16,576 nucleotides of DNA from a bacterium. GTDB lineage: Bacteria; B130-G9. The position numbers and the translations under genes are program-made. Positions 3,472-9,035 of the stretch are shown here, piece by piece. The number at the start of each line of letters is the position of its first letter. Position 1 is the stretch's first letter. Location of the stretch: assembly GCA_021160245.1 (NCBI GenBank), contig JAGHCW010000220.1:1-16576 (forward strand), in the 5' to 3' direction. The notes beneath the pieces are model-generated. The model had not been told where the DNA came from, ran no database searches, and worked only from the letters and a program-made list of their open reading frames with translations.

Positions 3472-3883
3472 ATGGATTTTGAGGGGATCAAGACGTTCAT
3501 CAAGGATACTGGATGGGGATATCTGGCCACAACAGACGGAGAGCGCCCGGCGGTTCGACCAATGGGGGGCGGTTGCTTGGATAGGCGATGAGTTCTGCTG
3601 TGCAACCGGGGCCAAGGACTCGAAGACCGTGGACGTATCGAAGCATCCACAAGTGGAGTATTGTTTTGCGGACAAAGAGGGCAAGCACGTCAGAATGCAG
3701 GGAACTTGCAGAATCAGCACCAAAGCCGAGCCAAAGGCAAAGCTGATTGAGCTCTATCCCTTTCTTGGCAAGTTCTTCAAGGGCCCCGATGACCCCAACT
3801 ACGTGGTACTCTGCATGAAGCCCGAGCGCATCAGATTCATGGGGGAAGGAAGCATGGAACACGACGAGGTCCCCATCGACTGA
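3472..3883 (+). pseudogene. pyridoxamine 5'-phosphate oxidase-family protein, frameshifted at a G6 run
   Basis: The family is the FMN-binding split barrel of pyridoxamine 5'-phosphate oxidase-like proteins, many of which bind flavin or heme cofactors and lack a proven substrate. The N-terminal part starts at the ATG at 3472 and runs 31 residues to the RPM at 3556-3564, including GWGYLATTDGERPAVRPM. The rest, from AVAWIGDEFCCATG onward, continues one base later in another frame and ends at the TGA at 3881-3883. The break is at a run of six G (3564-3569). One G fewer would join the parts into about 136 residues reading RPMGAVAWIGDE, which is what the family shows. It may be a real inactivating mutation or an assembly error in a homopolymer. 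No strong ribosome site is seen before the ATG. Confidence 0.8.
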
Positions 3884-4908: not shown

Positions 4909-7380
4909 CTATCTGTCCGCCGGCGCCTCCACGTCTTCTGCTAGCAGTATCTCGATCGCAGCGCGTTGGGCCGCTCGCCGGACGCGGAAGTCGAATGGCG
5001 CAAGACTCTTGCTCTCATACTCGGCGACCTTGAGAAGGTCCTTGAGGAATGCACGGTCCAAGAGCCGGCCCATGAACTCGGCCGCAGCGATTCTGTCCTT
5101 GAATTCGCCCTGCATCAGGACGTTTCTAAGTCTTTTCCTCGCTCGTTCTTCATTCGCGACGACGGCCGGATAGGAGATGAAGAAGAGCTGCCTGTATTCC
5201 TCACTCGAATGTACTGGAGAGAAGCCCATGTAAGCAGTATCGAGTTTCCTGAATCTCAGCATGACGGCCTTCTTGACCGATTCATCATCTAACATCATCG
5301 CAAGGGCCAGGGCCGCTTCCTTGCCAGTTTCAGGCTCTCTCTCCATTATTTTGATGATCTTCTTTGCTGATGCGACGTCATTGAGCTTGCCAAGTGACAC
5401 GATGCAACCTCGCAGCGCCATAGTGCTCTTCTCCGTATCGAGCATCCCGCGCAAGGTCGTTCTGACCTCCTCCTCGATGTCCAAGTTGCCAAGCTCGATT
5501 GCGAGGCCACCAAGCGATTGAGCGGAAAAAGCCCTGATCGCGGAGCTGGAATCCCCGAGAAGCTTCAGCAACAACCGAACCGCCTCGTCACCACCCATCG
5601 TAACCAGCGCCCTCGCCGCACTCTTGCGAATGACGCGATTCGAACTGCTGGCCGCATCCTGAAGAACCGGAAGCGCCGGACGGTCTATTGCGGCAAGCGC
5701 CTCCGCCGCAGAGATTCGGACTAACTTGCTTTTATCGTCCATCAACTGAACGAGCGCGTCGATGATTGCAGCCGAGGCGATGGGCTTCTTGGCGCAGACG
5801 TCGCCAGCCCGCCTTCTAATCCTATAGTCGGAATGCCCAAGAAGCATCAATAGCACATCCTCCGGAACGGGCTCCGCAGCATACCACAGCAAATAGGACG
5901 CTCGAAGAGCCGTCGTGGTCTCATCCGACTGGGCAGCCTTCAGGATTTCGTCAAACATCTCGCTCCTGCCAGCCTGATAGAGCACAAATTGGCTGTGCAG
6001 CCTGACAATTGGGTCCGCCTCGGTCTTTAGCACCTCTTCGGCAATCGGCTCAATGGCCGAAACATCCGGCAAGAAGGCCAGGGCCAACATCGCCTGTGAA
6101 CGAACGAACGCGTTCTCCGCCTTTGAGGCAGAAATCAGAGCTTGCTTCGCTCTGAAGCCCAAATCCACAAGGCCTCGGACTATATAGAAGTCGTAGTAAT
6201 TCCTGGACGCCGATTTCAGTAGCGCCTGCGCTGTTGCCGCGCTGTCGATGAATGACAGGCCCATCAGAGCGTATTGACGCGAGCTCGGCTGGCGACCATT
6301 GACCATGACGAGGGATTTTGAATCGGCGGCGATAACCATCTCGAGGTAGCGAATGGTCTCTATCACCATCTCATTCGTCTCACCCTCATCCTTGACCGCG
6401 GCCAGAAAAGACCTGGGTGTGTATCTCCCCGGTTGGACGTAATCCGCCTCGTGCCGCTGCGCAATGTCGGTTAATTCCCTACCAAGCAGGGCGCTTGATA
6501 TGAGTTCCATCTCGTCAACTATGATCTCAGGCGTGTCCTCGAAGAAGAGCTGCGTCAACTTCTGGTCCCGTTCGCTATACATATCCTGTTGGACATAATT
6601 GGTGCAGTAATAAACCATATACCTCGCCAGCGAGTTCGCCTCGGCCGCCAGGGCTGATCTCAGGTCATCTTGCTCAATGAAATGGAGTACTAACCGCTCG
6701 ATCCTCTTGGCAAGGTCAATGCTGTTATCGGATGATGCGGATAACGCGACGAATGCTGAACTTCCCTCCATGGACGACAGCGTCTTCACCGCCTCAGCCC
6801 GAACTGCTGCGTCCGGGTCCTGGGTCGCGCGCTTAAGCGCCGCTGTAGCCTCCTCTGTCCCAAGTCTCCTCAGGATTTTGACCGCCGCAAGACGGTTGCC
6901 GGTGTCCCTGTCCCCAAGAATAAAAGCAAGCGCCGGCACGCTATTTGGCAGCTGCATCCGACCGAGCATGTCAATGCCCATCGAGCGGTATTTACTGTTA
7001 TCCGAACGCAAAAGCGCCTCGGCCGCGCTGACGTCTCTTATTCGACTAAGCGCTGAGGCGGCTGCCTTGCTAACATCGCCTCGGCCATCGGACAGGAGCT
7101 TTTCTAGATGCGGAATGGCCTTCGGATCCCCCGTTTCACCCAGGGCGTCAGCGGCCGCAATGATCACCCTCTGATGAGGGTCATAGAGCGCCTTGACGAG
7201 CGCATCCACATAAATATCCCCCTTCATGCCCGCCAACTTTTTGGCCGCTCGCACTTTCGCGGCGGGCCCCTTGCTACCCGTCAATGTCGTAACACAAGAG
7301 TAGGGATTGCCCGCGCAGCTAACGAGCAAAGACGCTATGATGACCAACGAGACAATACTCAACATCCGAATCCTAATCAT
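4909..7380 (-). CDS. HEAT-repeat lipoprotein
   Basis: An 823-residue protein. The N-terminus has basic residues, a hydrophobic run and LLVSC ending at Cys22: a lipoprotein signal, so the protein is probably lipid-anchored outside the inner membrane. From about 45 to 215 and again from about 360 to 690, the sequence is made of roughly 30-residue helical units of PBS-lyase/HEAT type, for example ALGETGDPKAIPHLEKLL and DPDAAVRAEAVKTLSSM. Such solenoids act as scaffolds. A segment at about 225-350 does not follow the repeat and has several aromatic and acidic residues. The ATG at 7380 is preceded by GAGGTG. It follows the coiled-coil gene by 28 bp and is the last gene of the minus-strand operon from 9035. 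No catalytic motif was seen; partners are probably the three upstream products. Confidence 0.88.
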   Translation of the reverse strand: MIRIRMLSIVSLVIIASLLVSCAGNPYSCVTTLTGSKGPAAKVRAAKKLAGMKGDIYVDALVKALYDPHQRVIIAAADALGETGDPKAIPHLEKLLSDGRGDVSKAAASALSRIRDVSAAEALLRSDNSKYRSMGIDMLGRMQLPNSVPALAFILGDRDTGNRLAAVKILRRLGTEEATAALKRATQDPDAAVRAEAVKTLSSMEGSSAFVALSASSDNSIDLAKRIERLVLHFIEQDDLRSALAAEANSLARYMVYYCTNYVQQDMYSERDQKLTQLFFEDTPEIIVDEMELISSALLGRELTDIAQRHEADYVQPGRYTPRSFLAAVKDEGETNEMVIETIRYLEMVIAADSKSLVMVNGRQPSSRQYALMGLSFIDSAATAQALLKSASRNYYDFYIVRGLVDLGFRAKQALISASKAENAFVRSQAMLALAFLPDVSAIEPIAEEVLKTEADPIVRLHSQFVLYQAGRSEMFDEILKAAQSDETTTALRASYLLWYAAEPVPEDVLLMLLGHSDYRIRRRAGDVCAKKPIASAAIIDALVQLMDDKSKLVRISAAEALAAIDRPALPVLQDAASSSNRVIRKSAARALVTMGGDEAVRLLLKLLGDSSSAIRAFSAQSLGGLAIELGNLDIEEEVRTTLRGMLDTEKSTMALRGCIVSLGKLNDVASAKKIIKIMEREPETGKEAALALAMMLDDESVKKAVMLRFRKLDTAYMGFSPVHSSEEYRQLFFISYPAVVANEERARKRLRNVLMQGEFKDRIAAAEFMGRLLDRAFLKDLLKVAEYESKSLAPFDFRVRRAAQRAAIEILLAEDVEAPADR

Positions 7381-7408
7381 TCAACACCTCGCGATATGAT
7401 GATTTAGC

Positions 7409-8122
7409 TTACTGTAAACGGAAACGACCACGGAACTGCTGCGCCGGGCTCGCCATATTCACGGCGCCGGCCTCAAGCGGTTCCCAACCAACATCAATGC
7501 CATTTTTTTGAAGCTGCTTGCGCAGCTGTAAGAATATCCTGAAGCCGCTCGGCCGAACGACGAGGGCTACATATTCCTTCTTAGAATCGAGCTTCAAAGT
7601 CTCTACTCGCCAATCGGATGTGGACAGCCGAGTCTCTGCCAACGTCTCCCCCGGCCGATACCTGATCACGATGCTGTTGCTACCGACCTGCCGGACTACG
7701 TAATACTTCCGCACATATCGCCCGAAGAAGGGATTCACCCGATCGTCAACACATTCAAAATAGACCGCCCGCTTGCTACTATCCTTCTGGGCCGGCGTTG
7801 AGACCTCAATACTATGCTGCTCAATCTTGAAATCATTCGGCACAAGCGCCTTGAGCCGGGGCAGTTCATTCAGATGCTCCTCCCGCGTCTTTTCAAGAAC
7901 CGAAACCCGAGCCAAGAGCTCAACCACAGCGGCGTCTAGCTCCTTCTGGGCCGGTAAATTATCCCTCTTTGCATCATCCAGATTGAGCAACTCCAAAGCG
8001 GCATCGCGAGCCCGCTTCTTATCTTCCGCCTCCAACTTCGCCTGCTCAACTTCCCGTGTCAGCCCAGCAAGCCGAGCTCGCGTCTGGGACAGGTCCGTTC
8101 TGAGTTCCACCGGGGCGCTCAT
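7409..8122 (-). CDS. coiled-coil protein with C-terminal domain shared with its upstream neighbour
   Basis: A 237-residue protein with no signal or membrane helix of its own. Residues 8-92 form heptad-rich coiled coil (LSQTRARLAGLTREVEQAKL). The C-terminal domain opens with AVYFEC (119-124) and contains YVALVVRPSGFRIF...LRKQLQKNGIDVGWEPLEAG (184-219). The same two blocks occur in the protein encoded at 8268-9035 as PIYVEC and YVIFLIRTDG...GWAVGYEP, so the genes are paralogs. Its ATG overlaps the TGA of the 41-residue membrane ORF as ATGA. A fusion of the two would have the neighbour's architecture: helix, coil, domain. It therefore probably acts at the membrane with that small protein. Similar 'VRPDG...VGYE' proteins are known to me from Planctomycetes, where function is also unassigned. 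Confidence 0.82.
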   Translation of the reverse strand: MSAPVELRTDLSQTRARLAGLTREVEQAKLEAEDKKRARDAALELLNLDDAKRDNLPAQKELDAAVVELLARVSVLEKTREEHLNELPRLKALVPNDFKIEQHSIEVSTPAQKDSSKRAVYFECVDDRVNPFFGRYVRKYYVVRQVGSNSIVIRYRPGETLAETRLSTSDWRVETLKLDSKKEYVALVVRPSGFRIFLQLRKQLQKNGIDVGWEPLEAGAVNMASPAQQFRGRFRLQ

Positions 8123-8244
8123 CCCAGAGTATGAAGAACGACAACAGCAATTATGAAAATCAGAACACCGATTGTACAGGCCAGGATATCGAGAAATGAG
8201 AAACTGAAGAAGCCAATATCTGAAGAGCCCTTTCTTCGCGCCAA
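8119..8244 (-). CDS. 41-residue single-helix membrane protein
   Basis: A short gene with start TTG (8244-8242) and AGGAG seven bases upstream. It codes for a basic N-terminus (MARRKGSSD), then FFSFSFLDILACTIGVLIFI and a further hydrophobic run to residue 38, one membrane helix with the N-terminus inside. It ends at the TGA 8121-8119, overlapping the next ATG. The start of the helix, FSFLDILACTIGVLIF, resembles the first helix of ExbD/TolR, whose conserved Asp works in proton-driven energy transfer. Here that residue is Asp19. The paralogous segment of the upstream protein has FPFMAVLSCIIGSLVF with Met at this place. Termination and reinitiation at ATGA, or a frameshift making a fusion, are both possible. 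Coding is supported by the ribosome site, the overlap, and this similarity. Confidence 0.7.
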   Translation of the reverse strand: MARRKGSSDIGFFSFSFLDILACTIGVLIFIIAVVVLHTLG

Positions 8245-8267
8245 ATCCCTGCTCCTATGCCGCCCGA

Positions 8268-9035
8268 TTATCCGCCAAAGAAGAGCTCCCATTCGTCAAG
8301 AACAGGCTCATAGCCAACCGCCCATCCAGAAGCCTCTGAGAGCCGCCTAAGCTTGTCGAATACCGATACCCCGTCCGTGCGAATCAAGAATATCACATAC
8401 TTCGACGGGACCTCAAGACCGGACGCGGTGAGCCACTCCTCAAAAGTAGCATCCTTAACTCCATCCTCAAGCACAGGAATCGCAACAGCTGCCGGCCATA
8501 TCATCGCCTCGTTCAGCCTGCATTCCACATATATGGGCGTCTCGAGCCCTTTTTGCGACTGTTTCCGAACCGTTACAGCAACCGTTCTGCTCGCCGACAG
8601 CATCGCCGCCTTCTTCTTCAAATCATCAAGCTCCGCCGACCGGTCCCTATTCTTCGACTCGAGATTTGCGATCATCTCAAGGAGGCGCTCTCTCTCGGCG
8701 CCAAGCTCCGCAAGCCGTCTCGTGAGCTCTTCCGACTCCTGTTTCCGCCTCAGGAGCTCATCTGGCGATGGAACCTTCTTATCGACCAGAAACTCATTGT
8801 TCTCTCTCAGCTCCTGCTTGAGGCGCAGAAGCTCGGCTTCTTTCTCCTGCAAATCGGATTGTGCGCCCAGGACATCATCCTTGATGTCCCTCGTATCCAC
8901 GAGGTCCTTGCTGTATGCGATGAAGATAAAAAGGATGAAGACCAGCGAGCCGATAATGCATGACAGCACGGCCATGAATGGAAAATGCAGAACCTCTACT
9001 TGTCCATCTGAGGACGATCTTCGGTGCCTTCGCAC
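8268..9035 (-). CDS. membrane-anchored coiled-coil protein, first gene of envelope operon
   Basis: A 255-residue protein from a GTG start (9035-9033). The N-terminus is basic (MRRHRRSSSDG), followed by one membrane helix at 18-41 (VLHFPFMAVLSCIIGSLVF and on). A long charged coiled coil covers about 55-148, and the C-terminal domain 165-255 holds PIYVEC, YVIFLIRTDG and GWAVGYEPVLDEWEL. The helix motif FPFxAVLxCxxG recalls planctomycete membrane proteins usually annotated as hypothetical. With the N-terminus inside, the coil and domain should lie in the periplasm. The stop is 23 bp before the TTG of the 41-residue gene. The ribosome site is weak (GGGTGT at some distance). No enzyme motif was seen. 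Function is inferred only by analogy: ExbD/TolR-like architecture extended by a coiled coil. Confidence 0.82.
   Translation of the reverse strand: MRRHRRSSSDGQVEVLHFPFMAVLSCIIGSLVFILFIFIAYSKDLVDTRDIKDDVLGAQSDLQEKEAELLRLKQELRENNEFLVDKKVPSPDELLRRKQESEELTRRLAELGAERERLLEMIANLESKNRDRSAELDDLKKKAAMLSASRTVAVTVRKQSQKGLETPIYVECRLNEAMIWPAAVAIPVLEDGVKDATFEEWLTASGLEVPSKYVIFLIRTDGVSVFDKLRRLSEASGWAVGYEPVLDEWELFFGG

Follow-up and report, generated by a model that had tools for sequence, protein, structure and literature searches.

A pentameric ring around a pair of axle proteins is established for ExbBD, MotAB, and GldLM. In all 5:2 motors of solved structure known to us, the pair consists of two copies of one axle protein, so that a difference in the work of the two aspartates is hard to reveal by genetics. 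According to the sections of PMC9389320 covered here, the conserved aspartate is predicted for AglQ as well as AglS, the formation of an AglQ/AglS heterodimer is listed as an open question, and the GldM shaft measures 18 nm. The covered sections of PMC12204202 describe tolQ-like genes in the PVC group that occur with heterologous tolR-like gene pairs and vWA proteins, and those of PMC12505986 class the non-flagellar relatives together as generic ion transporters, part of them with no known function. The locus described here probably encodes the axle, formed by two different proteins, of a divergent motor of the 5:2 type.

The window, i.e., the whole stretch of 16,576 nucleotides analyzed, is contig C57 of a 3.43-Mb MAG (genome G000) and was compared with three further genomes (G001, G002, and G003) of the same family, “Candidatus Coatesbacteria.” A first-pass annotation had described four close genes on one strand. 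Their location on the minus strand stands, but the unit consists of three genes, A, B, and C (Table 1), and the supposed fourth, a helix open reading frame (ORF), is part of B. A, B, and C are neighbors in all four family genomes, including all three relatives of the window genome, and the refuting case, in which they would be neighbors in no related genome, did not arise; in G001, a contig break lies inside B, and the end of B is found on another contig. Gene A is conserved in 4/4 family genomes, and gene C is the best conserved of the three (63 to 64% identical in the relatives). Beyond the unit, genes for a DtxR-type iron-dependent repressor, FeoA, and FeoB follow one another in the orientation opposite to that of gene A, from which they diverge; the gene lists examined for the relatives show none of them next to A. 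A close homologue of the short-chain dehydrogenase/reductase (SDR) gene in the window adjoins gene C in G002 (74%) and a TolQ-type locus in G001 (75%).

Table 1. Coordinates of the features discussed (contig C57, the window, unless another contig or locus is named)
Feature	Contig or locus	Position	Strand	Description
Gene A	C57	8268..9035	-	255 aa, GTG start (ORF and translation); N-terminal membrane helix (LHFPFMAVLSCIIGSLVFILFIFIA), coiled coil, putatively ExbD-like C-terminal domain
Gene B, 5' fragment	C57	8119..8244	-	Membrane helix with Asp (FSFLDILACTIGVLIFIIAV); frame stops at TGA
Gene B, remainder	C57	7409..8122	-	237-aa ORF from overlapping ATGA; coiled coil and C-terminal domain
One-base indel site splitting gene B	C57	8119..8134	-	CTCT-GGGATG; DNA alignment with G002
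Gene C	C57	4909..7380	-	823-aa HEAT-repeat lipoprotein; lipobox LVSC, Ala at +2
Ring gene of the window genome	G000:C139	about 29305-30768		MotA/TolQ/ExbB-like
DtxR-type repressor, FeoA, and FeoB genes	C57	9273-12786	+	
SDR gene	C57	2515-3282	-	
PNPOx-family gene	C57	3472-3883	+	One-base indel at six-G run, ~3564-3569
Very long A-type protein	L059	7349-9583	-	
Very long A-type protein	L061	7690-9750	+	

The helix ORF of the window (41 to 57 aa, with a single membrane helix) had been taken for a separate one-helix gene preceding the 237-residue protein. It is actually the N terminus of B, cut off by an indel. The helix and the 237-aa part form one ORF in G001, G002, and G003, with a length of 274 aa where complete; the first 41 residues of the relatives' B match the small ORF of the window, and the rest matches the 237-aa ORF. 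DNA alignment with G002 places one missing base of the window just before GGGATG (CATACTCT-GGGATGAGC in the window versus CACACGCTCGGGATGAGC). A separate 41-residue membrane protein was rejected on the basis of this one-base indel and of an intact, single gene B in three relatives. The supposed difference between the two proteins, only one of which would have had a helix of its own, disappears with it, as both A and B carry one. A PNPOx-family gene elsewhere in the window also changes frame through a one-base indel and is whole in the relatives G001 (L152) and G002 (L153). The occurrence of two one-base indels beside G runs within 16.6 kb makes an error the likelier cause, and the break in gene B of the window is likely to have arisen in sequencing or assembly.

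In A and B alike, a short basic N terminus precedes a single membrane helix, which is followed by a coiled coil and a small C-terminal domain that bears the motifs recorded in the first-pass annotation (Y[VF]EC, then YV...R.[DS]G...VG[YW]EP). When alignments of the family alone were compared by hhalign, A and B matched over nearly their full length (probability, 99.1; E value, 4.5e-19), and the match strengthened with 35 and 33 sequences, respectively, from several phyla (probability, 99.9; E value, 1.7e-33). By profile comparison, A and B are thus full-length homologues, and the C-terminal domain that had been noticed as common to the 255- and 237-residue products is real. Window A scores 106.7 bits against the general A-type HMM, and the remainder of window B scores 63.5 bits against the B-type HMM (E value of 6.4e-37 in the whole-genome profile search); the 5' fragment of B is matched by the A-type HMM in its transmembrane segment only (42 bits). 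If fully helical and straight, the coils would measure ~17 nm in A and ~13 nm in B. Pfam and NCBIfam returned nothing for A and B except weak coiled-coil matches. No match to an OmpA-like domain of the MotB type was found in A, B, or the ring-linked relatives, and no vWA domain was matched in window A or B or appeared among the matches listed for the 35 A-type and 33 B-type members. Two Planctomycete-like genomes encode very long A-type proteins (687 to 745 aa) with the same helix motif.

The relationship of A and B to ExbD appears to be structural and positional. The AF2 model of A (mean pLDDT, 73) contains helices at residues 19 to 45, 48 to 85, and 91 to 160, followed by a C-terminal domain in which strands are combined with two helices; the model of B had a mean pLDDT of 55 and was left out of the fold search. 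Foldseek found no match to the A model in the PDB below an E value of 0.001. With VIA-align 2, the C-terminal domain of A aligned to 8p9r, the periplasmic domain of ExbD (Z score, 6.0; rmsd, 2.7; 68/74 residues), a score tied with those of several unrelated folds; the modeled domain resembles that of ExbD, though not decisively. Neither window A nor window B matched Pfam ExbD/TolR (PF02472) at E values up to 1, and hhalign comparison of A and B with ExbD proteins of the same genomes was not significant. A short cyanobacterial A relative, L142, was the only such relative to approach the Pfam ExbD model (21.1 bits, below the cutoff of 25.4). “ExbD-like” is therefore used here for predicted fold and position and not as a Pfam assignment.

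Relatives of A and B were found in Planctomycetota, Verrucomicrobiota, Myxococcota, Cyanobacteria, SAR324, and others. Distant matches to a profile of the C-terminal domains came from four genomes outside the family, and the gene order ring-A-B was found in G346, at two loci of G138, and in G275 and G093, the first three of which are among the profile-matched genomes; the ring gene of G093 was recognized by position only. Named genomes were then scanned with an alignment of the ring proteins, and the best 80 of at least 557 relatives were analyzed. Among these 80 loci, the genes directly behind the PF01618-like ring gene include A in 75 and B in 61. The five loci without A comprise the Coatesbacteria contig JAFGIT010000371.1, three contigs ending within 240 bases, and one cyanobacterial locus. 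Ring and A occur without an adjacent B in eight SAR324-type and four Planctomycetota loci, and two further contigs end before B. In G275, ring and A are located at 1.235 Mb, and a lone B is found ~665 kb away, at 0.571 Mb (L149 and L150); this separation suggests a possible model for the loci in which ring and A lack an adjacent B. The recurrent ExbB/TolQ/MotA partners for which a gene neighborhood analysis had been proposed are present: relatives of A and B stand directly downstream of such a gene in many phyla. The link to Planctomycetes drawn in the first-pass annotation for such helix-coil proteins also holds. Its reading of the products as a periplasm-spanning, perhaps energized complex gains strong gene neighborhood support but loses the separate one-helix partner.

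The genes that accompany these loci vary by lineage. No universal fourth partner was seen among the neighbors of the ring loci, only lineage-specific genes. The eight SAR324-type loci (L092, L096, L100, L103, L104, L118, L122, and L134) consist of the ring gene, a short A with Ser at the Asp site, and a gene for a lipoprotein-like, apparently TPR-type protein of ~520 to 916 aa; the carrier of the aspartate is not visible in them. In the Verrucomicrobiota loci L107, L110, L113, and L126, a BatA-looking gene of 593 to 604 aa (FANPAGLWALLGIPAVILIHFLQRKAQ) lies upstream of the ring gene. The ring protein of G275 has a zinc-ribbon-like N terminus.

In the Coatesbacteria family, no ExbB/TolQ/MotA gene was found beside A-B-C among the ring loci examined, which were the majority of those in the four genomes. 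A ring protein of ~490 aa is nevertheless present in 4/4 genomes, unlinked to A-B-C. The ring of the window genome matches PF01618 at 50.2 bits (cutoff, 22.9; E value, 4.8e-13), and the linked homologues score 45 to 51 bits. The family ring is homologous to the linked rings, N-terminal part included (E values of 1e-18 to 2e-42), and together they form one clade apart from the MotA, TolQ, and ExbB proteins of the same genomes (SH-aLRT, 97, in a quick tree with some long branches). The protein has an N-terminal hairpin and a long C-terminal helical tail. Pore threonines (GTV and TT; T184 and T226/T227) do not vary among eight aligned ring proteins; a pattern search of the best 80 loci found the GT motif in 77 and the TT motif in 64.

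The long helical tail recalls Zorya, and the best PADLOC matches of the ring protein are indeed ZorA models (ZorA2, 24.7 bits for the window family and 40.5 bits for G138). A Zorya-like anti-phage function for ring-A-B is nonetheless very improbable. The G138 ring scores only 23.8 and 21 bits against NCBIfam ZorA models with cutoffs of 100 and 500, respectively, and no ZorA model is among the NCBIfam matches listed for the window family ring. The OmpA domain is missing from A and B, the gene lists contain no recurrent effector-like genes beside the motor, and the ring-A-B set occurs in every family genome, unlike patchy defense islands. Identity with Zorya was set aside, as the ZorA scores are far below the cutoffs.

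The site of the ExbD/TolR/MotB aspartate was assigned by motif alignment as the residue seven before the conserved helix glycine, and the search patterns left this position free. Among the pattern-matched loci of the best 80, which share ancestry and do not represent independent events, B has Asp at this site in 55 of 55, and A has Ser in 61 of 72 and Asp in the other 11. Within the Coatesbacteria family, B has Asp in 4/4 genomes, and A has Ala in three, the window genome among them, and Ser in one.

The lack of the aspartate in A, together with an unlinked ring gene and a broken frame of B in the window, would also fit a static envelope tether. In that case, A-B-C of Coatesbacteria would have lost its motor function, and the unlinked ring would serve something else. 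This is unlikely, as all three relatives have the helix and aspartate of B in frame, 4/4 genomes retain the ring gene with its conserved threonines, and the parts are separated in G275 too (ring and A versus a lone B, at the distance given above). Alternatively, A and B could be force transducers or periplasmic linkers that dock outside an ordinary ExbB/TolQ motor in the manner of TolA/TonB. The length of the coiled coils and the C-terminal domain would fit such a role equally, and canonical ExbB/TolQ rings are present in these genomes. Yet no canonical ring locus listed adjoins A-B, several of these loci have MotB- or ExbD-like genes of their own, and the ring genes ahead of A and B relatives belong to a group of their own. 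Transducers are further disfavored by the invariant aspartate of B at the ExbD/MotB position and by the start of both A and B at the helix after a short basic N terminus, as in ExbD, and we consider this explanation quite improbable.

The product of gene C is a HEAT-repeat protein with a lipoprotein signal, in agreement with the HEAT-repeat lipoprotein solenoid that had been proposed to follow B; HEAT_2 matches in eight stretches (E value, 1.4e-60). The lipobox Cys and the Ala at +2 are present in 4/4 family genomes. In Escherichia coli, a lipoprotein with Ala at +2 is directed to the outer membrane, and the lipobox would make C a natural receiver of force there.

We therefore regard A and B as the probable heterodimeric axle (transpore) subunits of a divergent 5:2-type ion-driven motor that pushes on lipoprotein C. 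This reading draws on the homology of A and B, the conservation of A-B-C, the linkage of their relatives to ring genes, an orthologous ring in every family genome, and the aspartate pattern. The MotA/ExbB-like ring pentamer encoded on contig C139 would enclose one helix each of A and B in the inner membrane. Protons or another ion would travel by way of the aspartate of B and thereby shift the A/B pair relative to the ring, with an axle made asymmetric by the loss of the aspartate from A. The coiled coils would transmit this movement across the periplasm; if straight, they are long enough to span much of it, similar to the 18-nm shaft of GldM. The ExbD-like C-terminal domains, or the tip of the coil, may then engage C at the outer membrane. 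Conjectural parts of this model are the stoichiometry, the ion, the placement of C at the outer membrane and its role there, and the effect of the force. Several observations weigh against it: the ring gene is unlinked to A-B-C in the Coatesbacteria family, window A and B have no sequence-level match to ExbD/TolR, ExbD is just one of several folds with tied Z scores, and B is not adjacent in the SAR324-type and some Planctomycetota loci and lies elsewhere in one case in G275.

Whether these loci constitute a widespread, undescribed class of motor is, in our judgment, evenly balanced. Such a class would have an axle that is asymmetric by gene, with the aspartate always contributed by B and usually replaced by Ser or Ala in A, coiled-coil shafts, and lineage-specific lipoprotein outputs (HEAT type in Coatesbacteria and probably TPR type in SAR324). 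The literature covered, a partial selection that excluded most subscription journals and all preprints, contained no description of the coiled-coil pair or of a one-sided aspartate, and a prior description of the pair is possible. The covered part of the account of TPH-vWA motors (PMC12204202) likewise describes no one-sided aspartate, and these gene names are not mentioned in the main text of the Planctopirus limnophila essential-gene paper. With the axle halves encoded by separate genes and B as the sole carrier of the aspartate in most loci, swapping or removing the residue would permit a direct test of the number of ion-binding sites that a motor needs. Many unnamed helix-coil proteins of Planctomycetota, Verrucomicrobiota, and other phyla would also gain a likely mechanism from the model, which points to unexplored energized envelope machinery in these groups.

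The proposed motor shares features with five described systems and is distinct from each. As in ExbB-ExbD and TolQ-TolR, the ring gene in most relatives from other phyla is followed by genes for one-helix proteins that have a small periplasmic domain and, in B, an aspartate within the helix. Unlike those systems, A and B are two different one-helix subunits, usually with one aspartate between them and with long coiled coils; window A and B have no Pfam ExbD match, and the ring has the N-terminal hairpin and C-terminal helical tail. Zorya ZorAB has a similarly tailed ring and a one-helix partner, but there are two partners here instead of one, and neither has the OmpA domain. TPH-vWA motors, as described in the covered part of PMC12204202, are also found in PVC bacteria and combine a tolQ-like gene, heterologous pairs of helix proteins, and an accompanying TPR gene, whereas TPH proteins have a vWA domain, which is not found among the A/B-type matches listed. 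AglRQS of Myxococcus xanthus likewise has a single ring protein that is accompanied by two distinct subunits of the MotB/TolR type, whereas A usually has no aspartate and both A and B contain coiled coils. GldM of the Bacteroidetes motor GldLM is a homodimer with several periplasmic domains and differs from the A/B pair in this respect, but, compared by description, GldLM shares with the proposed motor a long periplasmic shaft, proposed in GldLM to push partners in the direction of the outer membrane.
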